A stretch of 40,711 nucleotides of DNA from a virus. Below the pieces are notes generated by a model. That model had not been told where the DNA came from, made no database searches, and worked only from the letters and a program-made list of their open reading frames with translations. The number at the start of each line of letters is the position of its first letter. The stretch's first letter is position 1. The stretch is taken from IMG/VR virus record IMGVR_UViG_3300044527_000988, positions 1-40,711 of that record, one strand, 5' to 3'. Of the stretch, positions 704 through 27,311 are shown in pieces. The position numbers were made by a program, and so were the translations under genes.

Positions 704-914
704 GGAACACCTCGACGGAGTCGGGGTCGAGGCGGCGCATCATGCCGGCCCAGTCGGCCTTCGTCGCCTCCCACCGGGCGTCAGCGTGCGCCGCTTCGTC
801 CTGGCGGCGGGCGGCGTCGAGCAGGTCGGCGTCGACGGTGCAGAGGCCCGACGCGTGGCGCAGCGCGAGGCGTGCGGGCGGGGCGGTGGTTCGAAGGGGG
901 TTGGCGCGGGACAT
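696..914 (-). CDS. Hypothetical protein, first gene of leftward early operon
   Basis: A 72-aa protein. The start at ATG 914 is chosen because GGGAGGAG lies just upstream, ending about 6 nt before it; an earlier in-frame ATG would run through the operator. The sequence is helical and charged, ending DPDSVEVFRG, and matches no family I recognise. As the promoter-proximal gene under the left operator it holds the position occupied by N in lambda, but no antitermination motif such as an arginine-rich N-terminus is obvious. Confidence 0.75.
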   Translation of the reverse strand: MSRANPLRTTAPPARLALRHASGLCTVDADLLDAARRQDEAAHADARWEATKADWAGMMRRLDPDSVEVFRG

Positions 915-926
915 CGGGGCTCCTCC

Positions 927-953
927 CGTACGGCCACTGTCCGTGGCCTTACG
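927..953. promoter_or_regulatory. Left operator (oL-like), 27-bp palindrome
   Basis: The inverted repeat has arms close to CGTAAGGCCAC and GTGGCCTTACG separated by 5 bp, with one arm mismatch here (CGTACGGCCAC). It lies 13 bp upstream of the start codon of the leftward operon, where it would block initiation. A near-identical copy lies at 1566-1592 on the other side of the repressor gene. It is the presumed binding site of the protein encoded at 1062-1547. Confidence 0.8.
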
Positions 954-1061
954 CTGGAGAACCTTACCCACACTTTGCGTGGCCTAGCCACTACGAACTG
1001 CGCGCATGCGCGGCTAGCCGGCGTTGGTGGCCGGAAAATAGTTCATCGCTCAACCGAGCGC
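954..1061. other. Intergenic region upstream of leftward operon
   Basis: This lies between the left operator and the 3' end of the repressor gene. It holds a further small palindrome, GTGGCCTAGCCAC at 979-991, and a relatively AT-rich patch (GGAAAATAGTTCATC around 1033-1047). The leftward promoter must lie here or overlap the operator, but I cannot fix a convincing -35/-10 pair. No open reading frame is evident. Confidence 0.5.
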
Positions 1062-1547
1062 CTAGTCGGACCGCCGAGCCAGATCGAACGCGAGCGCCTT
1101 GACCTCGCCCGCGGACATCGACTTAAGCGCCTCCGCGATGGCCTGGGCCGCGCCCGCCTTGGCGGGAGCCAGCTCGCCGATGGTCTGGGCCGCGTCCGCG
1201 AGGTCGGGGTGGACCTCGATCATCTGGGTGTTGGTGTCGGCGTCGAGCACCTGGACGACGAGCCGCTTCCCGACGCAGCGGGCCCACCGCGAGTAGGTGC
1301 GGATGTCGGGCTCGTTCCTGCCCGCCTTCCAGGCCTGGACGGTGCTCTCGGCCACGGTGATGTCGAAGTCTCGCTTCAACAGCGCCACGACGTCGGCTTG
1401 GCGCAGGTTGAGCTTCGCGCGCGCGGTCCGGAGCGTCGCCGGGATCGACTCCGTGTGCCCCGAGGGCTCGGGGAGGGTGACTCGCGGGATGGAGTCGATT
1501 CCAGCGCCACTCCGGACGCGTTGGTGCTTGGGCTTGTCGTTGGGCAT
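1062..1547 (-). CDS. Lambda repressor-like (XRE-type HTH) regulator, candidate prophage repressor
   Basis: A 161-aa protein starting at ATG 1547. Residues about 35-95 form an XRE-type helix-turn-helix: TLRTARAKLNLRQADVVALL, then ITVAESTVQAWKAGRNEPDI, with the recognition helix around STVQAWKAGR. The C-terminal part (ELAPAKAGAAQAIAEALKSMSAGEVKALAFDLARR) is helical and may drive oligomerisation; there is no LexA-type Ser/Lys peptidase domain. The gene is flanked by two copies of the same operator and faces away from the Cro-like gene, the classic place of a phage CI repressor. It would be autoregulated through the operator at 1566-1592, 19 bp upstream of its start. Confidence 0.75.
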   Translation of the reverse strand: MPNDKPKHQRVRSGAGIDSIPRVTLPEPSGHTESIPATLRTARAKLNLRQADVVALLKRDFDITVAESTVQAWKAGRNEPDIRTYSRWARCVGKRLVVQVLDADTNTQMIEVHPDLADAAQTIGELAPAKAGAAQAIAEALKSMSAGEVKALAFDLARRSD

Positions 1548-1565
1548 CGAACCCCCGTAACTCAA

Positions 1566-1592
1566 CGTAAGGCCACTTCTGGTGGCCTTGCG
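1566..1592. promoter_or_regulatory. Right operator (oR1-like), 27-bp palindrome
   Basis: Arms CGTAAGGCCAC and GTGGCCTTGCG are separated by TTCTG. The site agrees with the left operator at 927-953 at most positions, including both GGCCAC/GTGGCC cores and the outer CGTA/CG bases. It sits between the divergent repressor (start 1547) and Cro-like gene (start 1632), so occupancy would affect both. Confidence 0.8.
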
Positions 1593-1602
1593 GCGCGGGA
1601 TG

Positions 1603-1629
1603 TGGTAGACCACTTCGGGTGGGGTGACA
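1603..1629. promoter_or_regulatory. Weak second right operator (oR2-like)
   Basis: A degenerate copy of the operator centred on CCAC-TTCGG-GTGG, with the same 5-bp centre spacing; each arm matches 7 of 11 consensus positions. It lies immediately before the Cro-like start codon and overlaps its GGGTGGGG ribosome-binding sequence. A strong and a weak site in tandem would fit cooperative repressor binding; this is inference. Confidence 0.45.
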
Positions 1630-1631
1630 GC

Positions 1632-1946
1632 ATGTCTGACGAGACGTTCGGTGGTCGTATCCGTGCCCGGGCCCTGGCCCTTGGCATCGTAGACGACCGG
1701 GGAAGGGCCACCGCGGCCCGTCTGGCTGAGTTCCTGTCCGCGCGGTGGCGCATCGAGATCAAGCCGCGCACCGTCGAGGCGTGGCTCGCGAACGAGCGGG
1801 TGCCCCGCACCGGTCGCATGGTGCGCCTGCTGACGGAGCTGACCATCCACGGCGACGAGCGCGACGAGCTGCTCGCCCTGGCTGCGGAGGTCGAGCCCGA
1901 CGAGGCCCCGCCGATCGACTCCACCGCTGCCGCCGACGTGGCCTGA
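1632..1946 (+). CDS. Cro-like HTH regulator
   Basis: A 104-aa protein with ATG at 1632 preceded by GGGTGGGG. The stretch TAARLAEFLSARWRIEIKPRTVEAWLANERVPRTGRMVRLLTEL is an HTH in which RTVEAWLANERVP reads as the recognition helix and following loop. It is the first gene of the rightward early operon, divergent from the repressor, so a Cro role is the natural reading. The C-terminal tail is acidic and Ala-rich. It could instead be an unrelated transcription factor, since the identity rests on position plus a generic HTH. Confidence 0.7.
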   Translation: MSDETFGGRIRARALALGIVDDRGRATAARLAEFLSARWRIEIKPRTVEAWLANERVPRTGRMVRLLTELTIHGDERDELLALAAEVEPDEAPPIDSTAAADVA

Positions 1947-1963
1947 CCGCATCCCGCCCCCTT

Positions 1964-1990
1964 CGACCTCACCGTCCCACGTCGAGGTCG
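1964..1990 (+). terminator. Possible hairpin between Cro-like and CII-like genes
   Basis: CGACCTC at 1964-1970 and GAGGTCG at 1984-1990 form a perfect 7-bp stem with a 13-nt loop. No U tract follows, so it is not a standard intrinsic terminator. Its place between the first and second rightward genes resembles the tR1 region of lambda. It could equally be an mRNA processing or attenuation structure. Confidence 0.35.
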
Positions 1991-2024
1991 CACCCGCCAC
2001 CGGCATCACATGCGAGGAACCACG

Positions 2025-2474
2025 ATGATCCGAGCCTACACCACCCTGAACCGCCGCCAGCGCGCCTTCCTCAGCGAAGTCCACGAGCTCGGCCTCACCA
2101 CCGACCTCGCCCTCTCCGCAGCGGCGGCAGCGGTCGGCGAGCTCATCGACGAGTCCGCGATCTCCCGCTGGCGGAAGGGCGAGGGGCACGCCCCGCTGGG
2201 CCTCCTCCCCGTGCTGCTCGGCCACGTCGACCAGCCGGCGCTGGTGCTCGACGTCCTCGCCCGTCCGCTCGGCCTCCGGGTCGAGGTGGTCGAAGCCCCG
2301 TCCACCGGCCTGCGCTCCGTCGACGCCGAGGCCCTGGACGTCGTCCGCGAGGCGATGGCCATCGTCGAGGCGCACAAGGCCGGTGCCTCCGCGGCGCGCA
2401 TCGTCACGATGGGCCGCTCGTTGGCGAAGGAAGCGCGCGAGCTGAGCGACGCCGCCATCGCGAGCGCGAAGTGA
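2025..2474 (+). CDS. HTH regulator, possible CII-like protein
   Basis: A 149-aa protein; ATG 2025 is preferred over one 15 nt earlier because GCGAGGAAC lies 5 nt upstream of it. The N-terminal half contains ALSAAAAAVGELIDESAISRWRKGEGHAPLGLLPVLLGHVDQP, with ESAISRWRKGE as recognition helix. It is followed by ALVLDVLARPLGLRVEVVEA and a long helical C-terminus. Order and shape resemble phage CII-type regulators, which also combine an HTH with a conserved leucine-rich segment and a helical tail. That assignment is tentative; a replication-associated DNA-binding protein is an alternative. Confidence 0.55.
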   Translation: MIRAYTTLNRRQRAFLSEVHELGLTTDLALSAAAAAVGELIDESAISRWRKGEGHAPLGLLPVLLGHVDQPALVLDVLARPLGLRVEVVEAPSTGLRSVDAEALDVVREAMAIVEAHKAGASAARIVTMGRSLAKEARELSDAAIASAK

Positions 2475-2500
2475 CCACCCCCCGACCCCTTGGAGCCTCC

Positions 2501-3259
2501 GTGTCCGACCTCTCGATCCCTCGCCTGCTCTCCGGCCTCTCCGCGATCCGCGACCTTGTGCGCCTCGAGGACGACCGCCACCACGCAGCGGTCGAGAAGG
2601 CCCGCAAGCTCGGGCAGGACGAGCCCGGCGCCGACCTCCCGCGGGCGTCCTCGCCGAAGTGGGTCCGCACCGCCGCCAAGCTCCTGCGCGAGTCGGAGGC
2701 GGAGCCCTGGTACGCCCACCGCGACGTCGCGGACGACTGGGACCCGATCGGGCTCACCTTGGCGCAGCTGCGCGACGCGCCGGAGTTCGCGACCATCGCC
2801 GCCGAGCTGGTGGACGTCCGCTGGAGCATCGGCGCCACCGTCCAGCGGGACCTCGCCCACGAGCGGGTGGTCCTGGGCCGCATGTGCGTGGTGCCGCGCG
2901 AGGAGCGCGCCACCTGGCCGACCAACAGCGAGCCGCCTGCGTTCCGGTTCCGCTTGAGCGTGCCCGCCTTCGCCCTGGCCACCAGCGACGAGATCGAGCG
3001 CGCCCTCCACGAGCTGCTCGCCCAGTGCGGGGTGGGGGACAACGGGCCGGTGAAGCGCCGCCCCGACATCGTGGGGCACAGCTCCACCCTCGCCCGCTAC
3101 GGCGCCACCGACATTCAGGAGGCCCACGCGGTGGCCTGCGCGATGGCGTCGCCCGAGACGAAGCGGGCGATGGCGCGGTACGGCTTCGACCCGGCGAGCG
3201 GGCAAGGCATCCTCTGGCCCGCGCGCAGCCCCCGTCAGCCCTCCCTGGGTGACGCGTGA
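2501..3259 (+). CDS. Hypothetical early protein
   Basis: A 252-aa protein. GTG 2501 is chosen because TGGAG lies 8 nt upstream, although GTG 2471 overlaps the previous stop and is possible. The protein is soluble and mixed alpha/beta, with a helical N-terminus (LSGLSAIRDLVRLEDDRHHAAVEKARKL) and a C-terminal segment ATDIQEAHAVACAMASPETKRAMARYG. I see no catalytic motif and do not recognise the family. It overlaps the next gene by 4 bp (GTGA), so the two are translationally coupled. Confidence 0.7.
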   Translation: MSDLSIPRLLSGLSAIRDLVRLEDDRHHAAVEKARKLGQDEPGADLPRASSPKWVRTAAKLLRESEAEPWYAHRDVADDWDPIGLTLAQLRDAPEFATIAAELVDVRWSIGATVQRDLAHERVVLGRMCVVPREERATWPTNSEPPAFRFRLSVPAFALATSDEIERALHELLAQCGVGDNGPVKRRPDIVGHSSTLARYGATDIQEAHAVACAMASPETKRAMARYGFDPASGQGILWPARSPRQPSLGDA

Positions 3260-3564
3260 GCCGCCATCTGATGTGGGCCGCCGCCCTGCTTGCTGCGTCG
3301 GCTCCGGGGCCAGTGGTTGCTCCGGAGGAGGACGACGTCCTGCGCTTCCGTCGCACCCCGACGGTGCCGTTCGACTGGCTGCGCCGGAACGACCACGAGG
3401 GCCGGCGCCACCACCGCGACTCCGCCCACCCGAAGGTCCAGGCAGCCGATCGGAAGCGCCAGATGCGGGCAGCCAAGCGCATCGCCACCGCCGGACACAC
3501 CCAGCACTGCGCTGCCCGTCAGGTGTGGGGCGATGGCACATGCGACTGCGGCGTGACCCCGTGA
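3256..3564 (+). CDS. Hypothetical protein with C-terminal Cys/His cluster
   Basis: A 102-aa basic protein starting at GTG 3256 through a GTGA overlap. It is rich in Arg and His (NDHEGRRHHRDSAHP) and ends with GHTQHCAARQVWGDGTCDCGVTP, a Cys/His cluster that might bind zinc. The hydrophobic N-terminus (MWAAALLAASAPGPVVA) could be mistaken for a signal peptide but lacks a clear charged start. Function unknown. Confidence 0.6.
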   Translation: MSRHLMWAAALLAASAPGPVVAPEEDDVLRFRRTPTVPFDWLRRNDHEGRRHHRDSAHPKVQAADRKRQMRAAKRIATAGHTQHCAARQVWGDGTCDCGVTP

Positions 3565-3758
3565 AGCCGCACCCGAAGGGCAGCACCAAGTTCCCGGTGC
3601 GCGTGCTGGACGCGGTGTACGACCGGTGCGAGCTGTGGCTGCGCTCCGTGTGCTCCGAGGGCGCGGGCTGGGCGTACGGCTGCATCTGGACGGGTGAGCC
3701 CGCCTGCGAAGACGGCCCCTGCTGCTACGGCGGGTGCTCGACCCGGGTGACCCCGTGA
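3561..3758 (+). CDS. Cysteine-rich mini-protein
   Basis: A 65-aa protein starting at GTG 3561 with a 4-bp overlap. The last 40 residues hold seven cysteines (DRCELWLRSVC, YGCIW, ACEDGPCCYGGC). A zinc-binding or iron-sulphur fold is possible. It sits directly before the RusA gene, to which it is coupled by GTGA. Not a family I recognise. Confidence 0.6.
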   Translation: MKPHPKGSTKFPVRVLDAVYDRCELWLRSVCSEGAGWAYGCIWTGEPACEDGPCCYGGCSTRVTP

Positions 3759-4195
3759 CCGCCCCCGTCCGCCTCCGCGTGTACGGCACGCCGGGGCCGC
3801 AGGGGTCGAAGAAGCACGTCGGCGGCGGGCGCATGGTCGAGTCGTCGAAGAAGGTCGGCCCCTGGCGCGAGGCGGTGACCACCGCGGCGCAGATGGCCGG
3901 GGTCGCGGGCCTGCGCCTCGACGGGCCGCTGCTGCTGCGCGTGGAGTTCGTGCTCAAGCGGCCGCGCAAGCACTTCACGTCGAAGGGCCTGCGCCCCGAC
4001 GCGCCGCACTGGGTGACCACCACGCCGGACCTCGACAAGCTCCTGCGCTCGACCAAGGACGGCCTCGTGCAGGCCGGGGTGATCTGCGACGACAAGCTCG
4101 TCGCCGCGGGCGGCCAACACAAGCGGTACGCCAGCGAGGGCGAGACCCCCGGGGCCATCGTCGAGATCACGCGGCTGGTGGAGGGCGCGTGCTGA
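3755..4195 (+). CDS. rusA: RusA-family Holliday junction resolvase
   Basis: A 146-aa protein. RusA enzymes cut four-way DNA junctions as dimers during phage recombination and replication. The family hallmark is present: TTTPDLDKLLRSTKDGLVQAGVICDDKLV at about 88-116, with the conserved aspartates D92, D94, D112 and D113. The N-terminus RLRVYGTPGPQGSKK matches the usual beta strand and glycine loop. Length is slightly longer than the common 120-140 aa. It lies in the early operon among replication genes, coupled by 4-bp overlap upstream and 7-bp overlap downstream. Confidence 0.9.
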   Translation: MTAPVRLRVYGTPGPQGSKKHVGGGRMVESSKKVGPWREAVTTAAQMAGVAGLRLDGPLLLRVEFVLKRPRKHFTSKGLRPDAPHWVTTTPDLDKLLRSTKDGLVQAGVICDDKLVAAGGQHKRYASEGETPGAIVEITRLVEGAC

Positions 4196-4554: not shown

Positions 4555-5336
4555 CCGAGCGCCGGTGGGAGATCCGCCAAGGTGACGCCCTCGCACTGCT
4601 CCAGTCGCTCCCTGATGCGAGCGTGGACGCGCTCGTCACCGACCCGCCCTACTCGTCGGGTGGCCAGTTCCGCGGCGACCGGATGCAGGAGACATCGACG
4701 AAGTACACGGGCACCGACACCATGATCGTCCGCCCGGAGTTCGCTGGCGACAACCGCGACCAGCGTGCCTACGCCTACTGGACCGTGCTGTGGCTCTCCG
4801 AGTGCGCCCGCGTGCTTAAACCCGGCGCACCGGTCGCCCTCTTCGCCGACTGGCGCCAGCTCCCCGTCACCACCGACGCCCTGCAAGGGGGCGGGCTGGT
4901 CTGGCGCGGGGTGGCCGTCTGGGACAAGACGGAGGGTGCGCGCCCGACGATGGGCGGGTTCCGGTCGCAGTGCGAGTACCTCGTCTGGGGCACCAACGGC
5001 CCCCGCGACGCCGAAGGGATCGAGGCCGTCGGGTGCCTGCCGGGGGTCTTCCGGCACTCGGTGAGGCAGGCCGACAAGCACCACATCACGGGCAAGCCCA
5101 CGGCGCTGATGCGTGACGTGGTCCGCATCTGCCCCCCGGGCGGGCTTGTGCTCGACCCGTTCGCGGGAAGCGGGACCACGCTGGTGGCGGCGCTTGCCGA
5201 GGGCCGCCGAGGGCTCGGCTTCGAGCGGACCGAGGCGTACGCGTCGATTGCGCGCGGGCGGTGCGAGGCGGCGGAGTCGAACCGGGAGTACTCGGCGCCC
5301 GGTGAGCAGGCTGGCCTGTTCGGCGGTGCACCATGA
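4542..5336 (+). CDS. DNA N4-cytosine/N6-adenine methyltransferase (beta-class order)
   Basis: A 264-aa protein that should transfer a methyl group from S-adenosylmethionine to an exocyclic amino group in DNA. The catalytic motif DPPY is at 34-37, and the AdoMet-binding motif FAGSGTT at 207-213, followed by the usual helix (LVAALAEGRRGLGFE). Catalytic motif before AdoMet motif gives the beta-class order seen in many phage orphan enzymes. No restriction partner lies nearby. A likely role is protection from host restriction; the target sequence cannot be read from the gene. Confidence 0.9.
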   Translation: MLTTPERRWEIRQGDALALLQSLPDASVDALVTDPPYSSGGQFRGDRMQETSTKYTGTDTMIVRPEFAGDNRDQRAYAYWTVLWLSECARVLKPGAPVALFADWRQLPVTTDALQGGGLVWRGVAVWDKTEGARPTMGGFRSQCEYLVWGTNGPRDAEGIEAVGCLPGVFRHSVRQADKHHITGKPTALMRDVVRICPPGGLVLDPFAGSGTTLVAALAEGRRGLGFERTEAYASIARGRCEAAESNREYSAPGEQAGLFGGAP

Positions 5337-5539: not shown

Positions 5540-5891
5540 GCCCAGCGCCATCGCGCCCCTGATCCTCGACTGGCTCCGTACCCCGGGCCCTGACGGGCAG
5601 CTGTGGCCGTGGAAGGTCTGCGAACTCGCGCAGGGCATCGGGTGCGCGTGGACCACCGTGGCGCAGCAGGTGGCCGTGCTGGTGGAGGCCGGCCAGGTCG
5701 AGCACGCCGGCCACACGTACGCGCCCCGTGGCGTCCAGCCGAGCCTGTACCGGGCGGTCGAGGTCGCGGAGGTGGTGGAGGGTGCGCACGCTGCCCAAGG
5801 GGTGCACGAGGTGGGCCGCGTCGAAGTGGCGGGTGGCCCGTCGGTTGGTGAGCCGGTGGACGTCCACGGACGCCAGCGGGCGCGTCCATGA
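5532..5891 (+). CDS. Predicted winged-helix DNA-binding protein
   Basis: A 119-aa protein starting at GTG 5532 with GAGGTG upstream. Residues about 8-65 (IAPLILDWLRTPGPDGQLWPWKV, ELAQGIGCAWTTVAQQVAVLVEAGQVEHAGHTYAP) read as a winged helix: a recognition helix (AWTTVAQQVAVLVEAG) followed by a short wing. It precedes the putative replisome organiser by a 4-bp overlap and may act with it or regulate it. Confidence 0.6.
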   Translation: MGRPSAIAPLILDWLRTPGPDGQLWPWKVCELAQGIGCAWTTVAQQVAVLVEAGQVEHAGHTYAPRGVQPSLYRAVEVAEVVEGAHAAQGVHEVGRVEVAGGPSVGEPVDVHGRQRARP

Positions 5892-6820
5892 AGCCGAAGG
5901 GCGCCGCCTGGGGGGCGAGCTTCGCCGCGATGCCCGTGGCGGCGTGGCCGGTCATCGCCGAGCACCTGTCGCACCCGTGGCCCGAGGAGGCTGCGCGGTT
6001 CGACCTGCGGTGGTTCGCGGACCAGAACAAGCGGCAGGTCCCGGGGCGGTACGACCTCGCCGAACGCTGGGGGTGGACGCCCGACGAGGTGCGCACGCTC
6101 CTGCGCAACGCGGGGCGCTGGTGGGACCCGCTGTGGGGTCCTGCTCCGACGAAGCGCGAAGGGACTCTGACCCACGGTGACCCGGCGCGACCCAAGCTGA
6201 CCCACGCTGACCCACCGGCGACGGGCGAACCTGAGGAATCCAACACTCCTGACCCGGCGCGACCCACCGTGACCCAGGCTGACCCAACGTCGCCACAGCG
6301 CGATCCTTCTTCACCCTCACAGGCACCCACACCCCCACAGCAGGACATCCCGGCTCCGCCGGTCCAGCCCACGCTGGTCGGACCCCCGGCACCGCCGAAG
6401 ATCGACCCCCACCGCGAGGCGTGGCACACGGCGGCGCTGTTCTGGGGCTCCCAGGTCCTCCCAGCGTGCGGCCGGAAGCCCAGCAGCGGCCCGGAGAGCC
6501 CGTCGAAGGGCATCGGCTCCAAGCTCATGACCGCGGTCCGCAACGACGCCGAGGCCGTGCTCGACGCCCTGCGGTTCGTGGCGTGGAGCCAGCACAGCCG
6601 AGCGCTGCACTTCCGAGCCGAGCGGTACGACCTCGACACCGTGCTGCGGCACGTCGAGGCCTACTCCGGCCTGTGGCGCGAGTTCGGGGACAAGCCCCTC
6701 GGCGGGACGCAGGAGCGACGCACCGGAGGCCCGGCACCGCCGTCCGCCGGCGACGGGGTGCTGGACCGGCTGTGGGCGATGGAGCAGGCAGCGAAGCGGG
6801 CAGAGGAATTCGAGGCGTAG
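5888..6820 (+). CDS. Putative replisome organiser / replication initiator
   Basis: A 310-aa protein in three parts: an N-terminal domain (1-95) with a winged-helix look (GRYDLAERWGWTPDEVRTLLRNAGRW), a Pro/Thr-rich linker (about 96-175), and a C-terminal helical domain (REAWHTAALFWGS to the end). Phage replisome organisers such as lambda O share this plan: origin-binding domain, linker, then a domain that recruits the helicase loader. The linker is encoded by a 10-bp phased DNA repeat (6177-6288), as the lambda origin lies inside O. A possible loader gene follows at 7223. The assignment rests on architecture and context. Confidence 0.65.
   Translation: MKPKGAAWGASFAAMPVAAWPVIAEHLSHPWPEEAARFDLRWFADQNKRQVPGRYDLAERWGWTPDEVRTLLRNAGRWWDPLWGPAPTKREGTLTHGDPARPKLTHADPPATGEPEESNTPDPARPTVTQADPTSPQRDPSSPSQAPTPPQQDIPAPPVQPTLVGPPAPPKIDPHREAWHTAALFWGSQVLPACGRKPSSGPESPSKGIGSKLMTAVRNDAEAVLDALRFVAWSQHSRALHFRAERYDLDTVLRHVEAYSGLWREFGDKPLGGTQERRTGGPAPPSAGDGVLDRLWAMEQAAKRAEEFEA
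6177..6288. repeat. Phased 10-bp iteron array, candidate replication origin
   Basis: Five contiguous 10-bp units occupy 6177-6226: CTGACCCACG, GTGACCCGGC, GCGACCCAAG, CTGACCCACG and CTGACCCACC. Four more occupy 6249-6288: CTGACCCGGC, GCGACCCACC, GTGACCCAGG and CTGACCCAAC. The core is TGACCC. Since 10 is not a multiple of 3, each unit is read in a different frame, so the regularity belongs to the DNA, about one helical turn per unit. A less GC-rich stretch follows at about 6300-6340. Position inside a putative initiator gene fits a lambda-type origin. Confidence 0.7.
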
Positions 6821-6830
6821 GGAGGGCGAG

Positions 6831-7226
6831 ATGGTCAAGGTGTACGAGTGGAAGATGGTGCCGGTTCAGGAGATGCACACGGCCAGCGTGGACGGCTGGG
6901 AGCGGGACAGCGGCCCCGTGCTCGACGCGCTGCACTTCGCCTGCCTGATGCGCCGCGAGGTGGTACCGGGGCGGGTCACGAGCCCGGCCGCCCGCGAGCA
7001 CGTCACCGGCACCGAGGACGGGCTGGGGGAGCAGTCCGACCCGCTGCGCAACTGCTGGACGTGCGCGCACGCCGCAGACAACACCACCATCTGCCACGCG
7101 GAGCTGACCAACGAGCGGCGGGTGTGGACTCAGAGCGGCACCCACGCTCCCGATGCGAGCTCGCTGCTTGCGTGCCTCCCCGACGCCGACGGCTGCCCAG
7201 CCTGGGCCCCGAAGGCGACGCCGTGA
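6831..7226 (+). CDS. Hypothetical protein with Cys/His motif
   Basis: A 131-aa protein preceded by GGGAGGGCGAG. The N-terminus (MVKVYEWKMVPVQEMHTASVDGW) is beta-like; the C-terminal half has NCWTCAHAADNTTICH and a further Cys pair at the end, a possible zinc site. It lies between the replisome organiser and the loader-like gene. Confidence 0.65.
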   Translation: MVKVYEWKMVPVQEMHTASVDGWERDSGPVLDALHFACLMRREVVPGRVTSPAAREHVTGTEDGLGEQSDPLRNCWTCAHAADNTTICHAELTNERRVWTQSGTHAPDASSLLACLPDADGCPAWAPKATP

Positions 7227-7897
7227 GCCGCTCGATCCGGGAGGCCATCCTCGGCGCGTGGAAGGTGCTGGAGGGCGCCGGCCTGCGCCGCCCCTGGGGG
7301 AGCGACCACGAGGTCGCCAACGCCCTCGACACCTGGGCCCTGGTGCTCGCCGACGTCGAGCCGGGCCGCCTGCTGGTGATGGCCACGGCCTGGCTGCGCT
7401 CGCCGGAGGCGCGGTTCGGCCGCTGGCCGATGCCCGGGGCGCTGCTGCACGCCCTCGGCGACAACGTCGAGACGGACGAGGCGGACGAGGCGTGGGGCGA
7501 GGTGCTGGCGCTGCTGCAGTCGAGGGGGCGCGACTGGTGCTGCCGGAGCGTGCCCACCGTGCAGGCGCTGGTGGACCTGGAGCAGGCGATGCGCGAGCGC
7601 GTGCAGGAGCTCCGCACCCGCGGGGATGCGCTCCTCGCCGAGCAGCAGGAGCGGCGGAGGGCTGGGCTGCCGAAGGGGCCCGAGGACCGGCTGGTCGCCG
7701 TGTTCGCGGGCCTGTCCGCCTGTGGTGGATGGCGCGGGCTCGCGGTGTCGGAGGACCTGGTGGCGCACCGGGCCGCGTTCCGGGCCGCGTTCCGTGGCAC
7801 GACCAAGCGCCGGCAGCTCGAGGGGCAGGAGGCCGAGGTGGTCGCCCTGCTCGGTGGTGGGCCGAGGCCCCGGCTGCTGGCTGGGGGTCGCCCGTGA
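7223..7897 (+). CDS. Possible helicase-loader-like protein
   Basis: A 224-aa helical protein starting at GTG 7223 (GTGA overlap). Residues about 25-80 read DHEVANALDTWALVLADVEPGRLLVMATAWLRSPEARFGRWPMPGALLHAL. This resembles the N-terminal region of phage helicase loaders of the G39P type: W..L.D.....v..A...L.......P..G.L. Position directly downstream of the initiator-like gene supports a loader. The remainder is charged and helical (QAMRERVQELRTRGDALLAEQQERRR). The similarity is a weak pattern, not a demonstrated match. Confidence 0.45.
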   Translation: MSRSIREAILGAWKVLEGAGLRRPWGSDHEVANALDTWALVLADVEPGRLLVMATAWLRSPEARFGRWPMPGALLHALGDNVETDEADEAWGEVLALLQSRGRDWCCRSVPTVQALVDLEQAMRERVQELRTRGDALLAEQQERRRAGLPKGPEDRLVAVFAGLSACGGWRGLAVSEDLVAHRAAFRAAFRGTTKRRQLEGQEAEVVALLGGGPRPRLLAGGRP

Positions 7898-8310
7898 GCC
7901 GCGCGTGCGCGCCCTGCGGCGATGCCCCGCTGACGTTGTGCCAGCACTGGGGTGACGGGTGGAGGGACATGGCGGTGTGGAGCAGGCTCGGCATCAAGCT
8001 GAGCGCGTGCGACGAGCGCTGGTGGACCGGCGTGGCCGACGAGCGCGACTGCGCCGCCTGCCCTTCCCCGCCCGTGGACCTTGGCCGCCTGCTCCTCGAC
8101 GCCCTCGACAGCGGCGGTGCTGACGCGCGCATCACCGCCCACACCGCCCGCGATGGGCACACGTTCCTCGCCGAGCGCCAGTACCTCGTCGAGTGGTGCG
8201 GGAGCCCCGTGTACCACGGGACCGACCTCGTCGAAGCCCTGTCGAGGCTGGCGGAGCGCACCCGCCCGCCCCTGTCGCCCCCAACCCTTTGCGCACTGGA
8301 GACAGCATGA
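7894..8310 (+). CDS. Hypothetical Cys-containing early protein
   Basis: A 138-aa protein starting at GTG 7894 (GTGA overlap). It has scattered cysteines (ACAPCGDAPLTLCQHW; RDCAACPSPP), suggesting metal binding in the N-terminal half, and a C-terminal part (TFLAERQYLVEWCGSPVYHGTDLVEALSRLAERT) of mixed structure. No family recognised. Confidence 0.6.
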   Translation: MSRACAPCGDAPLTLCQHWGDGWRDMAVWSRLGIKLSACDERWWTGVADERDCAACPSPPVDLGRLLLDALDSGGADARITAHTARDGHTFLAERQYLVEWCGSPVYHGTDLVEALSRLAERTRPPLSPPTLCALETA

Positions 8311-8561
8311 ACGCCGTGAACAGCCAGATCGAGACCGCAGCACCGAACCGCAAGCGCACCGTCGACGAGTGGGTGGAGGCCCTCACCGACTGGGTCGCCG
8401 AGCAGGACCGGAGCGGCACGGAGGTCTGCCTGGACCGCCCGGGCAGGCGCACGGAGGCCGGGAGGCACGCGTGGGCGTGGCTGGTGGGCGAGGGGTACGT
8501 GGTGCGCGACGTCGTCGACGGCCTCGGCGGGCACTCGGCGCACGTGTGGAGGCTCACTTGA
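8307..8561 (+). CDS. Small winged-helix-like protein
   Basis: An 84-aa protein, ATG 8307 in an ATGA overlap. The segment TEAGRHAWAWLVGEGYVVRDVVDGLGGHSAHVWRLT has the helix plus beta-hairpin pattern of a winged helix. Function unknown, perhaps regulatory. Confidence 0.55.
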   Translation: MNAVNSQIETAAPNRKRTVDEWVEALTDWVAEQDRSGTEVCLDRPGRRTEAGRHAWAWLVGEGYVVRDVVDGLGGHSAHVWRLT

Positions 8562-9742: not shown

Positions 9743-10330
9743 ATGGAGCCGAACCCGAAAGCCGTACTGTCGTGGATGTCTGAGGTTCCCGGCCGCACAC
9801 CATCCGACGCGGTCGCGCGGTTCTGGCCCACGGCGCACGAGTCCGAGCTAACCCGACTCTCCACCCGTGTCCGGCAGTGGGTCTTCCGCGCGCGCCGGGA
9901 GGGTGGCCACGAGCCTGCACCACCCCCCGCAGAGCCCACCCTCGGGCGCCGTTCGGGCCGTCCGCGGGTCCACGAGCCCGCGGAGGTGGTTCCGCCCACC
10001 CCTGCGCAGGCCCTCGGCGCCGTCGAGCGCCCTGCGGCCCGCCTCGAGGTCACGGGCTGGACCCGCCTGCAGTACCTCGAGTGGGACCTCGTGGAGTGCG
10101 TGCGTGACCTGGACCACGCGCGCGCGACGGGGCAGATCAAGCTCGCGATTGACGCCGGCCGGCGAGCCTCCGACGTCCGGGCGGCGCTCGACCAGGCCCG
10201 CGGCGAAGCCGGCCGCGCGGTTAAGCTCGACCGCAACCCCGCGGCCGTGGCTGCGGAGATGGCCCGACGGCAGCAGCAGCTTGCGCAGCTGGCCGCCGCC
10301 CCGGGCGCCACGAAGGATCGGGACCTGTGA
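9743..10330 (+). CDS. Putative terminase small subunit
   Basis: A 195-aa protein, first gene of the late region. The N-terminal segment (MEPNPKAVLSWMSEVPGRTPSDAVARFWP, then LSTRVRQWVFRARREGG) looks like a DNA-binding HTH. A Pro-rich linker leads to a long helical part (ARLEVTGWTRLQYLEWDLVECVRDLDHARATGQIKLAIDAGRRASDVRAALDQARGEAGR) suited to ring oligomerisation. Small terminases recognise the packaging site and load DNA on the large subunit, encoded two genes downstream. Family membership rests on context and domain plan. Confidence 0.6.
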   Translation: MEPNPKAVLSWMSEVPGRTPSDAVARFWPTAHESELTRLSTRVRQWVFRARREGGHEPAPPPAEPTLGRRSGRPRVHEPAEVVPPTPAQALGAVERPAARLEVTGWTRLQYLEWDLVECVRDLDHARATGQIKLAIDAGRRASDVRAALDQARGEAGRAVKLDRNPAAVAAEMARRQQQLAQLAAAPGATKDRDL

Positions 10331-10659
10331 GGCACACCGACGAGCTCGCCTGGATGGCCCACCACCTACGCGCCGCAGCCGAGCGGGCGCGCGGCTCGTG
10401 GGCTGACGCGCCGACGCCGCCCGCGCCCCCGTGCTGGTGTGGCGTGGTGCACTGCGTCCCGCTCGACCACCGCAGGATGGAGGTGCTCGGCGAGAAGTGG
10501 ACCGGGCGCGGGTGGGCCGAGTACGGCACGAACCCCGCCTACTCGTGGGTGCTTCGCGCCGGGGTGGATGCGTTCGAGCGGGCGCTGCGCGCTGAGGCGC
10601 CTGCGTTGTGGGCCGCGGTCGAGTCGGATGCCCTCGTGGCCCGCGCGGCGCTGCGGTGA
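10327..10659 (+). CDS. Hypothetical protein between terminase genes
   Basis: A 110-aa protein from GTG 10327. It contains CWCGVVHC in the middle (possible metal site), then YGTNPAYSWVLRAGVDAFERALRAEAPALWAAVESD. It is coupled by 4-bp overlaps on both sides to the terminase genes. No family recognised. Confidence 0.6.
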   Translation: MRHTDELAWMAHHLRAAAERARGSWADAPTPPAPPCWCGVVHCVPLDHRRMEVLGEKWTGRGWAEYGTNPAYSWVLRAGVDAFERALRAEAPALWAAVESDALVARAALR

Positions 10660-12104
10660 GCGACCTCGACGAACTCGTCGCAGCCCAGGCCGATGACCTC
10701 GAGTGGCTGGCACAGGTCGAGGCGCAGTACCCGCTGGCGCTGGCGTCCCTGTGGACGGCCCCGGCGGCGCGGTGGGACCAGCGGCGGTCGGTGCTCGCGG
10801 CGATGACCGCCCCCGTCGTCTCGCTCGTGCTGGGCGGGGAGCGCGCGGGGAAGTCGCGCGGGCTGCAGCAGCTCACCACGGCGATGGCACTGGGTGGCGA
10901 CCACCCCGCCGTCCGGGCCTGGCTCGCGGCGAACGACCTCCCGACCCACCTGATCCCCGACGGTCCCGGGCGCGTGTACGCAGTGGCACTCACCTCGACA
11001 GCGTCGCTCCGGTACCACCGGAACATCTTCGACCAGCTCCTCGGCACCGGGAAGACCTGGTACAACCGGAACGGGAAGGGCGAGGCGTGGCTCCAGATCG
11101 ACGTTCCCGGGCACAGCAGGGCGGGGGAGATCTGGTTCAAGAGCGTTGACCAGGGCCCGGACGCGATGCAGGGCGACTCGATCCGGTGGGCGTGGATCGA
11201 CGAGGAGCCGAAGGGCGAGCAGGGCCAGCTGGTGTACGCCCAGTTGAAGGCCCGCGTGATGGACCAGCGGGGCCGCGTCGGGATCTCGATGGTGCCGATG
11301 TCCGGGTACACGTGGGTGTACGACGAGCTCGTGGTGAAGCGGAAGGACTCGCCGACCATCGTGGAGCTCGACGCCCTCGACAACCCCTTCCTCCCCCGCG
11401 ACCGTGCCGAGGCGCACTACGGCGCGATGGACAAGGATGAAGCCGAGATGCGGCGGTATGGCCGCTTCGTCTCCCGGATGGGCGCCGTGTACCCCACCTG
11501 GGACCCGACCGGGTCGGACCGGTACGGGATGGGTCACGTGTGCGACCCGTTCCCTGTGCCTCCCGACGCGCCGATCTTCCGCGCCGCGGACTTCGGCCTC
11601 GCCGACCCCACCGTCATGCTGTGGGCCTTCGTCGACGACGACGGCACCATCTACGTGTTCCGCGAGTACTACCAGCCCGACGGCATCTCGTACCGCTGGC
11701 ACGCGGAGCAGTGCGCCCACCTCGAGGGGCGGCGCGTCGTCGACGGCGAGTGGAGCGGCGGGGAGCCCGTAGAGGCCGGGTGGGGCGACCACCTGCCCGA
11801 CGCGCTGCAGGCGTTCGCCGCGGTGGGCCTGCAGATGGGCCACGCGGAGAACGGCAAGAAGGACGTCAACGGCGGCGTCGACCGGGTGCGCGACCGCCTC
11901 CGCCTGCGCTCCGACCACCGGCCGCGGCTGAAGGTGTTCTCGAGCTGCGTGAACACCATCCGCGAGATGAGCGGCTACGTGCTCGACCCGCAACGCCGCG
12001 ACGAGCAGCCCCGCAAGCTGCACGACCACACCTGCGACACGCTGCGCTACCTCGTCGGCGGAATCGACGACTACTTCGCCGTCGGGATCGCCGCTGGGGC
12101 CTGA
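10656..12104 (+). CDS. Terminase large subunit
   Basis: A 482-aa packaging motor. The N-terminal ATPase has Walker A GGERAGKS at 60-67, Walker B IRWAWIDEE at 176-184 with the catalytic Glu, and the coupling segment GISMVPMSGYTW near 209-220. The C-terminal RNase H-like nuclease begins with FRAADFGLADPTVMLW, giving the metal-binding Asp at 312, and ends with HDHTCDTLRYLV containing further acidic residues. The motor cuts concatemeric DNA and pumps it through the portal. The gene ends 34 bp inside the oppositely oriented portal gene. The packaging type (cos or pac) cannot be read here. Confidence 0.92.
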   Translation: MSDLDELVAAQADDLEWLAQVEAQYPLALASLWTAPAARWDQRRSVLAAMTAPVVSLVLGGERAGKSRGLQQLTTAMALGGDHPAVRAWLAANDLPTHLIPDGPGRVYAVALTSTASLRYHRNIFDQLLGTGKTWYNRNGKGEAWLQIDVPGHSRAGEIWFKSVDQGPDAMQGDSIRWAWIDEEPKGEQGQLVYAQLKARVMDQRGRVGISMVPMSGYTWVYDELVVKRKDSPTIVELDALDNPFLPRDRAEAHYGAMDKDEAEMRRYGRFVSRMGAVYPTWDPTGSDRYGMGHVCDPFPVPPDAPIFRAADFGLADPTVMLWAFVDDDGTIYVFREYYQPDGISYRWHAEQCAHLEGRRVVDGEWSGGEPVEAGWGDHLPDALQAFAAVGLQMGHAENGKKDVNGGVDRVRDRLRLRSDHRPRLKVFSSCVNTIREMSGYVLDPQRRDEQPRKLHDHTCDTLRYLVGGIDDYFAVGIAAGA

Positions 12105-13606
12105 GGGATCCGCAGCGCCGCGCGGGTGATCTGCGCCGCCCGGCCTGCCGTCAGGGGCTCGCCGCTCTCCGCAGCCTGGCGCGCGGCCTCGAGGAGCACG
12201 GGCGCGATGGCCAGCGCCGACCCCACCGGGTCCGGGTCACCGGCGAGCTCGAGCGCACCCGCCAGCCGCCACTGCTCCTGGTTGTCGTCGGCCTCCCCGG
12301 TCGCGACCCGACCCACTGCGGCCGTGTACCAGGCCGAGAGCGCCGCCGACTGCCGAGAGGGCTGGTCGTCGACCTCCGGCTTCGGGCGGCTCGACTCCCT
12401 CGACGACGGCGGCACGCCCACCGGGGCGTCGCGGAAGCCCTCGTACGAGGCCGCTGCCCTCGGGTCGGCGCCCATCACGGTGACCCAGAACCCGGCGCGC
12501 GCCTGGCGCTGGTCGTAGCTGGTCTGGAGCGCCTCCACGGCGGACGTGTCGAAGCGCACCTCGTCGGAGGCCGACCCGCCGACCTGCTGCGCGATCACGG
12601 TCAGGGCCTCGGCGATGAGCGCCAGATCCGAGACGACGAGCGAGCCCCAGTAGTCGCGCATCTCCGCCTTGGCGACGGCGAAGTTCGCCTGCGGGATGCC
12701 GGCCCGGGTGGGCGGCACGCGGAGCACCGAGAGGGTCTCGTCCCGGACGGCGGTGTCGAGCCCGCTGAAGTCGACATCCTTCGCCGTCCACGAGGTCGAC
12801 GAGACGGTGGGGCCGCCCGACAGGGCGAGCACGCCGACCCCCGAGGCCATGGCCGCCAGGTACTGCTCGACGACCTCTTTGAGCGCCCGCGGTCCGACGG
12901 TCTGCGCGGACGGGTACGTGATGATCACGTCGGGACGGCCCTTCCCCGCCTGCGCCGCGGCGAAGGCGCGCGACTTCTGCACGGTCAGAAGGCCATCCTT
13001 CAGCGTGCGGATCGCGCTCTCCCCGTACAGCGCCGACAGCCCGTCCGACCACGAGACGTCGTGGATGTGTTGCACCTCGAGGGGCGAGAGCCGGACCTCG
13101 CCGCCGTAGATCCACCGCACGATCACGCCGCCGCGCACCTCGGCGCGCATCTGTTCGGGGTGCAGGCGGTGGAGTTCCCACTCGTTGATCCCGACCGAGC
13201 GCAGCCACAGGTACGCGTTCCCGGTGAGGGAGAGGTCGGCCTCGAGCTGGCGCAGGAGCAGCGTGCGCGTCACCCCCGGCGACGGACGCTTGAGGAGCCG
13301 CAGGAACGGGTGGCCGGGCACCTGCTCGACTCCGTCGGGGCCTTGCACCACCACGATCGGAAGCCCCCCGACGTCGTCGCACCGCGCACGGATGCAGGCG
13401 CGGACCCACGGGAACGCGGCCATCGCCGACAGCGCGCCGAGCTGCGAGAAGCCCGGCTGCACCGGGTACCCGGCGTACCCCGCTGAGGCGGTGATCTCGA
13501 TCGGTGCGAGCAGCTGGCGCACCCACCCTCCGACCGTGTCGCGCGCACGGGCGAGGAGTCCGGGGCGCAGCGCGAGGGACGTGGACGACGGGTCGGCAGG
13601 TGGCAT
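12071..13606 (-). CDS. Portal protein (HK97-type), encoded on the opposite strand
   Basis: A 511-aa protein starting at ATG 13606. Portal hallmarks are visible: VRACIRARCDDVGGLPIVVVQG, FLRLLKRPSPGVTRTLLLRQLEADLSLTGNAYLWL, LHPEQMRAEV, VQHIHDVSWSDGLSALYGESAIRTLKDGL, DFSGLDTAVRDETLSVLRVPPTRAGI and NFAVAKAEMRDYWGSLV. The last 90 residues are a less typical Ala-rich helical tail. The portal forms the dodecameric vertex through which DNA enters. Here it runs against terminase and capsid genes, overlaps the terminase end by 34 bp and has its own promoter-like -10 box 7 nt upstream. Confidence 0.92.
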   Translation of the reverse strand: MPPADPSSTSLALRPGLLARARDTVGGWVRQLLAPIEITASAGYAGYPVQPGFSQLGALSAMAAFPWVRACIRARCDDVGGLPIVVVQGPDGVEQVPGHPFLRLLKRPSPGVTRTLLLRQLEADLSLTGNAYLWLRSVGINEWELHRLHPEQMRAEVRGGVIVRWIYGGEVRLSPLEVQHIHDVSWSDGLSALYGESAIRTLKDGLLTVQKSRAFAAAQAGKGRPDVIITYPSAQTVGPRALKEVVEQYLAAMASGVGVLALSGGPTVSSTSWTAKDVDFSGLDTAVRDETLSVLRVPPTRAGIPQANFAVAKAEMRDYWGSLVVSDLALIAEALTVIAQQVGGSASDEVRFDTSAVEALQTSYDQRQARAGFWVTVMGADPRAAASYEGFRDAPVGVPPSSRESSRPKPEVDDQPSRQSAALSAWYTAAVGRVATGEADDNQEQWRLAGALELAGDPDPVGSALAIAPVLLEAARQAAESGEPLTAGRAAQITRAALRIPQAPAAIPTAK

Positions 13607-13619
13607 GCATGCGATTGTA
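13607..13619 (-). promoter_or_regulatory. Portal promoter -10 element (leaderless)
   Basis: Read leftward, TACAAT occupies 13619-13614, followed by 7 nt (CGCATGC) and then the portal ATG at 13606. No ribosome-binding sequence is present. A good -35 is not visible at the usual distance (TCGAAT with a 17-bp spacer), so an activator may be needed. Confidence 0.55.
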
Positions 13620-13630
13620 TCGCGTCGTGA

Positions 13631-13666
13631 TGACAGATTCGACACAGTCGTGATAGCGTCTCTGTC
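13631..13666 (+). promoter_or_regulatory. Head operon promoter (leaderless), divergent from portal
   Basis: -35 TGACAG at 13631-13636, 17-bp spacer, -10 TAGCGT at 13654-13659, then 7 nt to ATG 13667. Geometry is identical to the promoter at 9707. CGACACAGTCG at 13641-13650 (from CGACACAG with flanking base) lies between the boxes and may be a regulator site. Confidence 0.5.
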
Positions 13667-14476
13667 ATGGGTGCAGATCTCGACCTCGACGACCTCGACG
13701 GGCTGGCCTTCGCCGGCCGCAACGGCGCGCACCACACCTGGCGTGCCGAGGGCAGCGCTGCGGACGGTGCCACCGTTGACGAGGGTTCGGCGCGCTTCAT
13801 CCTGTACGGAGGCGGCGAGGTCCGCTACAACCCCCAGTGGGAAGCCGGCGGCGACGTGATCGCCACCCGCGAGTTCCGACTGGCGCCGTTCCGTCGGAAC
13901 CCAGTGGTCCTCGCCGATCACGACCCGCTGCGGGTGATCGGCGTCGGCACCGCGAAGATCGTGCAGGATGGAGACACCGCCCGCCTCGAGGGCGCGGTCC
14001 AGTGGGACCTGCACGAGAGCAACCCCACCGCCATCCTCATCGCTGGCCAGCACGCGCGCGGCGTGCGCAAGGCCGTGTCGATCGGCTTCATGCCGGGCAA
14101 GGGCAGCGTGGCGCGCACGAAGCTCCCCGAGGGCGACCGCTGGCGGCTCGATCCCGACACCGTGCCCGAGTGGCGCGCAGGCCAGTACTACCGCCACCCT
14201 GAGCTGTACGAGTGGAGCTCGGTGGCCGTGCCCCGCGACCCCACCGCGCTGCAGCTGCAGTCGTGGGCGCTCGCCTCCGAGGACCCGCAGGAGCAGATCC
14301 GCCGCGCCGTGCGCGAGGTGCTCGCCTCCTCGGCCGCCGAGGTGGTGCTCGACGCCGTGCGCCACGACCCGGCGATCCGCCAGTCCATCCAGGCCGCAGC
14401 ACTGCTCGCGGCGCCACCGCCCACCATCACCCCGCCTTCCCCGCTCGATGCGTGGTGGGCCACTCGGAGCGCATGA
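13667..14476 (+). CDS. HK97-type prohead maturation protease
   Basis: A 269-aa serine protease that trims the capsid scaffold domain during maturation. The expected catalytic residues appear in family context: His85 in VVLADHDPLRVIG, Ser138 in KAVSIGFMPG, and an acidic residue (Glu182) in ELYEWSSVAVPRDPTALQL. Length is typical. The C-terminal 70 residues are helical and Pro-ended and may contact the scaffold. It overlaps the capsid gene by 4 bp (ATGA). Confidence 0.88.
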   Translation: MGADLDLDDLDGLAFAGRNGAHHTWRAEGSAADGATVDEGSARFILYGGGEVRYNPQWEAGGDVIATREFRLAPFRRNPVVLADHDPLRVIGVGTAKIVQDGDTARLEGAVQWDLHESNPTAILIAGQHARGVRKAVSIGFMPGKGSVARTKLPEGDRWRLDPDTVPEWRAGQYYRHPELYEWSSVAVPRDPTALQLQSWALASEDPQEQIRRAVREVLASSAAEVVLDAVRHDPAIRQSIQAAALLAAPPPTITPPSPLDAWWATRSA

Positions 14477-16047
14477 TGTCGATCACGACCCCGGACGAGG
14501 TCGTCAAGACCCTGTCCTCCCTGCAGGACCACGTCAAGACCCTCGTTCCCGGCGAGAAGTTCTCGCGGCTGGACGAGGCCGTCTCGACCCTCACCGGTCA
14601 GCTGCGCGACCTGCGCCGCCAGTCGATCGAGGCCGCGCACGCCGCGCCGACCGGCTCCGACGCCGACGCCCAGCAGCGGTACACCGTGCGCGCCGAGAGC
14701 GTGCGCGCGCAGGCCGTCGATCCGAGCCTCCGGCAGGGCCCCGTGTCCTACGCCGCCCCCGAGGCCGCGCGCCCCGGCCGCGAGTACGCCGCCTCGAAGA
14801 CCTCCGAGCGGGCCGTCCGGCTCCTCACCGAGCACGACGAGATGGGCCGCGCCCAGCCCGGCCTGCTCGACGACGTCGCGCCCGTCACCGAGTGGCAGGC
14901 CGAGCTCCAGCACATCGTGACCGTGCGCGGCCTCGCCAAGATGGCCCGGTCCCGCGGCACGACCAGCGGCGGCACCAGCTTCGGCACGACCCCCGCGATC
15001 GACGCCGCCCTCCGGCGCCACCTGGACCGCGGCCCCGCGTGGGTCCGCCAGGCGTTCGCCGACAACGCCACCGAGGGCGCGGAGATGATCCCCGACGTCA
15101 CCCTCCCCGAGCTCTACCGCAAGCTCGAGGCGGCCCGGTCGGTGACCAACCTCTTCGAGACGATGCAGATGCCCACGGGCGGGTCGACGATCAACCCGTT
15201 CTTGGTGACCGGGTGCCAGCCCTTCCTGGTCGGGCAGCCCGTCGCCGGCGACCTGGACCCCGCGATGATCCAGCGTTCGCAGCCCGTGACCTCCAGCGTC
15301 AACGCGGCGCCGAAGACCTGGGGCGTGACCCTCCCCGCGAACCGGGACGCCTCCGAGGACTCGATCATCGAGTACGCCGGGATGGCGCTGATGCTCCTGG
15401 CCGAAGCCATCCGCGACGGCAAGGAAGACGCGTGGATCAACGCCGACACGAACGGCGGTGATACCGGCCTCGCCGGCTGGAACCCGCGCAGCCGCTGGTC
15501 CACCCTCGGTCACGCCAACGACCACCGGAAGACCGCGATCGGCCTGCGCCACCACTCGTTCGACGTGTCGTCCAGCTCCGCCCTCGGCACCCAGACGGCC
15601 GCGGGCATCATGGCCGAGTTCATCAACCTCGACTCCCCGCACATGCTCGGCGAGCTGGCGATCATCACCTCGCCGGAGTTCTACATCGCGAAGCTCCTGC
15701 AGGACACCAACCTCCTCACCGTGGACAAGATCGGCGCCCTCGCGACCCTGCTCACCGGCCAGGTCGGCAGCATCGCCGGGCACCCCCTGGTGATCTCCGA
15801 GTTCGTGGACAAGCAGTACAACACCAGCGGCATCTACGACGACTCGACGAAGACGAAGACCGGCGTCCTCATCGTGAACCGCAGCCGCTGGAAGAACGCG
15901 GTCCGCCGCGGCCCGCGCGTCGAGGTCGAGGTCGTCGCCCGCCAGCACGTCACGTACACCACCCTGACCGAGCGGTGGACCCCGCGCCACATCGGCCAGT
16001 CGACCGAGAAATCGGTCGCGTGGTGCTACAACGCCGACATTTCCTGA
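14473..16047 (+). CDS. Major capsid protein (HK97 fold)
   Basis: A 524-aa protein. Residues 1 to about 120 form a helical delta/scaffold domain (EVVKTLSSLQDHVKTLVPGEKFSRLDEAVSTLTGQLRDLRRQSIEA). This would be cut by the adjacent protease, leaving a mature subunit near 400 aa. The remainder shows capsid-family features: GAEMIPDVTLPELYRKLEAARSVTNLF, ASEDSIIEYAGMALMLLAEAIRDGKEDAWINADT, and the C-terminal SRWKNAVRRGPRVEVEVVARQHVTYTTLTERWTP. Start at ATG 14473 through the ATGA overlap; the adjacent ATG 14476 is equally possible. Confidence 0.92.
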   Translation: MMSITTPDEVVKTLSSLQDHVKTLVPGEKFSRLDEAVSTLTGQLRDLRRQSIEAAHAAPTGSDADAQQRYTVRAESVRAQAVDPSLRQGPVSYAAPEAARPGREYAASKTSERAVRLLTEHDEMGRAQPGLLDDVAPVTEWQAELQHIVTVRGLAKMARSRGTTSGGTSFGTTPAIDAALRRHLDRGPAWVRQAFADNATEGAEMIPDVTLPELYRKLEAARSVTNLFETMQMPTGGSTINPFLVTGCQPFLVGQPVAGDLDPAMIQRSQPVTSSVNAAPKTWGVTLPANRDASEDSIIEYAGMALMLLAEAIRDGKEDAWINADTNGGDTGLAGWNPRSRWSTLGHANDHRKTAIGLRHHSFDVSSSSALGTQTAAGIMAEFINLDSPHMLGELAIITSPEFYIAKLLQDTNLLTVDKIGALATLLTGQVGSIAGHPLVISEFVDKQYNTSGIYDDSTKTKTGVLIVNRSRWKNAVRRGPRVEVEVVARQHVTYTTLTERWTPRHIGQSTEKSVAWCYNADIS

Positions 16048-16072: not shown

Positions 16073-16519
16073 ATGCTTTCCCTCCTCGCGGCCATGGCCG
16101 CCCTGCTCACCACCGAGGCCGCCGCACAGCAGGCCGCCTCGCTGTGTGTCGACTTCACCTACGCCGCCAACACCGACGACGAGCGCTACATCCCGATGCC
16201 CTTCACGGGCTCGTACGAAGTGACCGGGATCATGTTCGCTCCCGCGACCGCCGTGGCGGTCAACGCGAGCAACGTGAACGCCTTCACCGTCGCGATGAAC
16301 GCGGGCACGGCGTCCACCTCGTGGACCACGCTGGCGTCGCACACCACCGACTCCGATCTCACCAGCTCGGCCTACGTGATCGGCACCGTGATCGACCTCA
16401 CGGTGACGAAGCCCGCGACCGTCAGCCGTGGCTACCAGTTCCGGGTCGAGAACACCAACGGCGGCACCGGCGCTGCCTTCGACGGCGCGGTGTGCATCGC
16501 GCTCCGCAAGGTGGGCTAA
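16073..16519 (+). CDS. Probable capsid decoration or head fibre protein
   Basis: A 148-aa protein directly after the capsid gene, ATG 16073 with CCGGAGC upstream. Most of it is Thr/Ala/Val-rich beta structure (TAVAVNASNVNAFTVAMNAGTASTSWTTLASHTTDS), as in small decoration proteins. The first 23 residues (MLSLLAAMAALLTTEAAAQQAAS) look like a secretion signal, odd for a virion protein assembled in the cytoplasm. They may simply be a buried hydrophobic helix. Confidence 0.55.
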   Translation: MLSLLAAMAALLTTEAAAQQAASLCVDFTYAANTDDERYIPMPFTGSYEVTGIMFAPATAVAVNASNVNAFTVAMNAGTASTSWTTLASHTTDSDLTSSAYVIGTVIDLTVTKPATVSRGYQFRVENTNGGTGAAFDGAVCIALRKVG

Positions 16520-26891: not shown

Positions 26892-26951
26892 GAGGCACTC
26901 CGCACAGTCGGATAGCCCGACACAGCGGTCACGTGATACAGTCGGGTTGCG
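26892..26951 (+). promoter_or_regulatory. Promoter-like gap with ACAGTCGG repeats
   Basis: The gap holds ACAGTCGG at 26904-26911 and 26938-26945, with CCGACA inverted at 26917-26922. TACAGT at 26937-26942 could be a -10 box, preceded by TGA (extended -10 form), ending 9 nt before ATG 26952. No ribosome-binding sequence is present, so this too may be a leaderless start. No good -35 is visible. Confidence 0.45.
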
Positions 26952-27311
26952 ATGTCTGTTACCCTCCCGAACTTCACCGCCGAGCGCCATGACGACGTCG
27001 TCATCGCCGACACCTGGTATCGGCTGGTGCAGCTGGTCGACGGCGACGGCACCGGCTTCGACCTCACCGACGCCACCGGAACCGGCGAGGTCTACAACGA
27101 CTCGGGCACGCTCGCCACGATCACGGTGGGCGCTGTCGGGCACGCGTCGTACCTGATCACGGCCGGCTGGCTCGCGCTGTCGATGGCCGCGACCGTCACC
27201 GACGACCTCACCCAGCAGCGCGCCCGGTACCGGGTCCGCCTGACGTGGTCCTCCCCCGCGTGGGCGATCACGATCCTCGAGGGCGACCTCGAGATCCGGG
27301 CGGTCTGGTGA
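26952..27311 (+). CDS. Small tail/baseplate protein
   Basis: A 119-aa beta protein (SVTLPNFTAERHDDVVIADTWYRLVQLVDGDGTGFDLTDATGTGEVYNDSG, ending AITILEGDLEIRAVW). The pattern of an applied-value or range domain (LTDATGTGEVYNDSGTLATITV) is typical of short baseplate upper proteins in tail-tip gene clusters. It begins a second late sub-operon after the gap at 26892. Confidence 0.6.
   Translation: MSVTLPNFTAERHDDVVIADTWYRLVQLVDGDGTGFDLTDATGTGEVYNDSGTLATITVGAVGHASYLITAGWLALSMAATVTDDLTQQRARYRVRLTWSSPAWAITILEGDLEIRAVW

Follow-up and report, generated by a model that had tools for sequence, protein, structure and literature searches.

The window analysed here is IMG/VR record IMGVR_UViG_3300044527_000988 at its full length, 40,711 bp of ~73% GC from an uncultured phage. 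Its head-gene region contains the following features, of which the portal gene is the only inverted one:

9743..10330, plus strand: open reading frame of 195 aa heading the upstream rightward unit, with a TACACT-N7-ATG box upstream
10656..12104, plus strand: terminase large subunit, terL (PF03237, E 1.2e-6; phrog_5653, E 1e-12)
12071..13606, minus strand: portal gene, inverted, 511 aa (PF04860, E 6.7e-32; phrog_2662, E 2.5e-31; HK97 portal fold)
12071..12104: 34-bp tail-to-tail overlap of terL and portal, read from the sequence
13607..13666: 60-bp divergent gap between portal and protease, read from the sequence, 52% GC and among the lowest-GC stretches of the record
13614..13619, minus strand: TACAAT, candidate -10 box serving the portal and separated from its ATG by 7 nt
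13630..13639, minus strand: the 10-mer AATCTGTCAT, on the portal's own strand and shared with the relative L067 upstream of the portal
13654..13659, plus strand: TAGCGT, candidate -10 box serving the protease-capsid operon and separated from the protease ATG by 7 nt, with a possible -35 (ATGACA) 18 nt upstream
13667..14476, plus strand: prohead protease (phrog_617, E 3.2e-7; HMM with relatives)
14473..16047, plus strand: major capsid protein (phrog_2263, E 4e-5; HMM with relatives)

Family assignment is secure for the portal and significant for terL, protease and capsid. The terL gene starts with a GTG at 10656 that overlaps the stop of the preceding reading frame. Searches with Pfam and PHROG profiles returned no match for the product of 9743..10330, whose position suggests that it is the small terminase. 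A small protein encoded after the capsid gene (16073-16519) is common to the relative L009 and, weakly, to L018; it is possibly a capsid decoration protein.

The record holds one portal gene only, and it is intact, with an ATG start and no internal stops. Codon-position GC on its minus strand (0.73/0.54/0.94) resembles that of terL, which is the pattern of a coding strand. An AlphaFold model of the product (mean pLDDT 62, with the core mostly at 80-90) matches the HK97 portal 8cez in Foldseek (E 1.6e-11), and the portal is HK97-type (PF04860) both by a significant profile match over the cut-off and by its portal fold. The first-pass annotation had described a leftward portal amid rightward terL, protease and capsid genes, and this is borne out by the reading-frame coordinates and profile matches; its lengths for the tail overlap (34 bp, 12071-12104) and the divergent gap (60 bp, 13607-13666) are exact. 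The inversion makes the portal a separate unit that converges on terL.

Because the contig is metagenomic, the portal segment could have been joined in the wrong orientation during assembly, a concern already raised in the first-pass annotation. A contig from a different metagenome, L002 (IMGVR_UViG_3300035666_000169), has the same gene order and matches the window at 100% identity over 9,947 bp, a stretch that spans both junctions. Because it may have been sampled at the same site as the window, it counts as a second assembly, not as an independent virus. However, the two contigs agree, and both breakpoints sit exactly between complete genes. The junctions also lack an inverted repeat that could mislead an assembler, since the matches common to both are chance-like (19 nt, 74%), and the pattern recurs in L115 and L121, a pair of contigs unrelated to these two. 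An assembly inversion is therefore very unlikely. The inversion itself is the only feature that points to a phase-variable segment switched by a recombinase; flanking inverted repeats were not found, a recombinase gene is not seen adjacent to the portal, and the window and L002 both present a single orientation. We consider phase variation barely credible. Inverted repeats at the junctions were rejected as a cause of either inversion or misassembly, as none exceeds chance.

Portal, capsid and terL queries run against IMG/VR yielded 97 usable portals, which form 32 clusters at 70% identity. Orientation of the portal relative to the capsid genes is readable in 31 clusters: the two share a strand in 28/31 and are opposed in 3/31, corresponding to three lineages, namely the window, L009, and L115/L121 (IMGVR 3300030330_005305 and 3300030430_003247). 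In L115, terL, protease and capsid run in one direction (rightward), whereas the portal and a MuF gene behind it run in the other; in L121, from a metagenome different from that of L115, portal-MuF is inverted relative to protease and capsid. The portal of L009 is directly divergent from the capsid gene, and the contig ends inside the portal. The inversion in the window is thus not one of a kind, as portal or portal-MuF cassettes are flipped in at least two other lineages.

Orientation of the portal relative to terL, readable in 26 clusters, is opposite in the window, L115, L071 and L139. Both L071 (terL 750-2081, minus strand; portal 2441-3508, plus strand) and L139 (terL 7001-8323, plus strand; portal 5564-6625, minus strand) have terL as the flipped gene, diverging from a portal-protease-capsid run. 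L162 and L192, candidates for further rearrangements, were set aside because their records are too short; L192, a 4.6-kb record without a portal match, carries protease and terL ~700 bp apart on opposite strands (2729-3945), with no portal between them. The terL-portal junction often holds extra reading frames, some on the opposite strand (L018:1945-3087; L049:4182-4586 and 4807-5280), which suggests an insertion hot spot. Portals with a MuF-like domain fused at their C-terminus occur in L003 (4240-6306, 688 aa) and L049 (5806-8271, 821 aa); the window and L018 portals do not have this domain.

The first-pass annotation had proposed looking for the same order in related phages. It is found in the identical L002, and the portal is flipped in two other lineages, but the nearest relatives, L067 and L018, carry terL>portal>protease>capsid all on one strand, and the inversion in the window is therefore derived. 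The annotated phages with the nearest public portals (MW462191, OP947159 and MW202777) have the canonical order. Single-protein scans with the window's capsid and with its terL found no close relative beyond L002, and one genome scan returned only three distant prophage-like loci.

Approximately unbiased (AU) tests reject a grouping of the window with L115 for the portal (p 7e-8) and with L009 for both portal (p 0.02) and capsid (p 1e-49). The inversions consequently arose separately, and common ancestry of all inverted portals is ruled out. Before L067 was added, the window stood beside L018 in each of four single-gene trees (portal, terL, protease and capsid). With the larger set, the capsid tree joins the window to L067 (98/94) and then to L018 (99/94). 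In the portal tree, the window falls within a well-supported clade of seven members that includes L067 and L018 (99/99), but it lies outside L067+L018 (94/88), and for terL the AU test rejects window+L067 (p 0.007). These last two results indicate that recombination is possible, even replacement of the portal from a sister lineage: the original gene would have been lost and a sister-lineage portal inserted in reverse, bringing its promoter. Differing portal and capsid histories in L071 and L139, within the same phage group, are consistent with such replacement. However, a portal grouping of window+L067+L018 is not rejected (p 0.23), the four earlier single-gene trees had agreed on one sister, L018, and the window and L067 have the AATCTGTCAT 10-mer in common ahead of the portal. 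Replacement is thus unlikely, and the portal appears to have been flipped in place.

Promoter-like boxes on both strands of the portal-protease gap had also been described in the first-pass annotation. A strict scan of the 60-bp gap for the sigma-70 consensus gave no match, but TANNNT does lie before each start codon. Only 40 TANNNT sites occur in the record on both strands, and two of them sit exactly 7 nt before the portal and protease ATG. Both boxes together arise in 0.02% (2e-4) of dinucleotide shuffles of the gap, in a test framed after the boxes had been seen; the chance level of the protease box alone in the gap is 2%. Neither start has a Shine-Dalgarno sequence, and no good -35 accompanies the portal box of the window. 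In high-GC bacteria, leaderless genes are documented to carry TANNNT about 10-12 nt ahead of the start codon (PMC3160421, PMC3898074). In sequence, the window's portal and protease resemble such TA-led genes: the first T of the box lies 12-13 nt ahead of the start codon, and a Shine-Dalgarno sequence is missing. Unlike in bacterial leaderless genes, the box is found in phage structural genes and is concentrated on one of them. These features suggest that the gap boxes are active promoters and that the portal mRNA may be leaderless.

Boxes similar to those in the gap also precede 9743 and 26952. The latter (26937-26952) consists of TACAGT-N9-ATG with a CGACACAG element, which is also present in the portal-protease gap, and is possibly another late promoter. 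In L067 (3750-3835) and L009 (5765-5835), operator-like TGACA-N3-TGTCA palindromes extend over the presumed -35 of the portal promoter and are possible regulator sites. The window has no such sequence: a search allowing up to 2 mismatches gave 4 matches, where 7.9 are expected.

The position of TANNNT relative to in-frame portal starts was compared in two sets, a first, closer family clustered at 80% identity and the wider set of 32 portal clusters at 70% identity. In the closer family, 15/18 clusters have the box 6-7 nt ahead of the portal start (1.5 starts expected), and at the same position it precedes terL in 1/14, protease in 1/17 (the window itself), capsid in 0/16 and adaptor in 0/13; at this position the box marks portals and is rare at the other genes. 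In most of the boxed clusters of this family, 84 or 96 nt lie between the portal start and the conserved region that follows, and TTGCCN/TTGCTA is often present 17 nt upstream. The portal box drops to 13/32 in the wider set (2.7 expected), which indicates a feature of the closer family and not of all relatives. A protease-start box is seen in 2/30 of the wider set, equal to expectation. The canonically ordered L018 has a perfect TTGACA-N17-TACGCT-N6-ATG at its portal and L067, also canonical, has TTGACA-N18-TACGCT-N10-ATG; at the inverted portals of L115/L121 a leaderless-type box was not found. Cause and effect are thus probably the reverse of those in the first-pass proposal, in which the portal acquires a promoter of its own by inverting: canonical relatives, including L018 and L067, already have a promoter-like element before the portal start.

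We propose that the portal was a self-contained gene that flipped in place together with its own promoter, that this was tolerated, and that a separate box drives the protease-capsid-tail operon; on the evidence above, this account is probably correct. The portal start in this phage group lies 6-10 nt behind a -10 box, so the gene would have a promoter to itself and, in many members, would give a leaderless mRNA. Ancestrally, this promoter would have headed a portal-protease-capsid operon. On the branch leading to the window, portal gene and promoter would then have flipped together without leaving their place, yielding a monocistronic unit that reads toward terL; the 34 bp by which its end now overlaps the convergent terL would be a consequence of this reorientation. 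Such a flip removes the promoter from the head of the operon, so the remaining genes need another start, for which the TAGCGT box immediately before the protease is the candidate. The portal would have been able to invert because it was already equipped with a promoter, and the flip would have been tolerated because no gene lost its promoter. The portal can therefore probably flip without harm, its own promoter being already present in this phage group.

The inversion could instead reflect adaptive rewiring, in which portal dosage is uncoupled from capsid expression and the terL and portal mRNAs repress each other through complementary 3' ends. Portal and protease do have separate boxes, the arrangement recurs in L115/L121 and L009, and no terminator was found between the convergent, overlapping ends of terL and portal, so some transcriptional interference is possible. 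However, the antisense overlap is not a common feature, as in L115 the inverted cassette, which includes MuF and small genes, shows no overlap with terL. The inverted lineages are also few (3/31 clusters) and apparently scattered. Because the portal box is already present in canonical relatives, the flip adds little to the portal's own dosage. Adaptive rewiring is consequently doubtful, and the flip of the portal with its promoter appears to be near-neutral and not selected.

Relative to the canonical HK97-type cassette, the window has terL, portal, protease and capsid adjacent and in the same order, with an HK97-type portal fold, but its portal is reversed where the canonical genes all occupy one strand. 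L115/L121 resemble the window in having a leftward portal with rightward protease and capsid (and, in L115, rightward terL), but their inverted cassette includes the MuF gene and small open reading frames, and they belong to a different lineage. Phage P2 (NC_001895) offers a characterized parallel: Q and P are leftward and O, N, M and L rightward, so that, as in the window, the portal on one side and the scaffold/protease and capsid genes on the other point away from each other. According to its record, a short intergenic region in P2 holds both promoters (TSS 3016 and 3127) with a shared activator site (3057-3087); the window gap, unlike that of P2, is only 60 bp. P2 transcribes terL (P) together with the portal, in a leadered and activator-dependent manner. 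In the window, and independently in L115, terL instead stays on the capsid strand, and in the window it converges on the portal; the window thus shares with P2 a portal divergent from protease and capsid, but not a portal and terL in one operon. Searches of open-access papers returned no report of a lone inverted portal, which is weak negative evidence. The portal inversion is a head-gene rearrangement that recurs within an uncultured phage group.

HK97-type head genes rank among the best conserved for both order and strand, and their co-transcription is assumed to balance a single portal ring against hundreds of capsid subunits. It is conceivable, although we hold this only tentatively, that in a large uncultured group the portal, alone or joined by MuF, forms a leaderless and flippable cassette with autonomous transcription, that its own conserved promoter and not its place in the operon sets stoichiometry, and that portal/terL strand reversals recur at the same junctions. 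A portal that keeps its own promoter and has been flipped at least three times indicates that gene order can persist while strand changes. Inverted phages and their canonical relatives are thus natural pairs for asking whether portal dosage depends on operon position.
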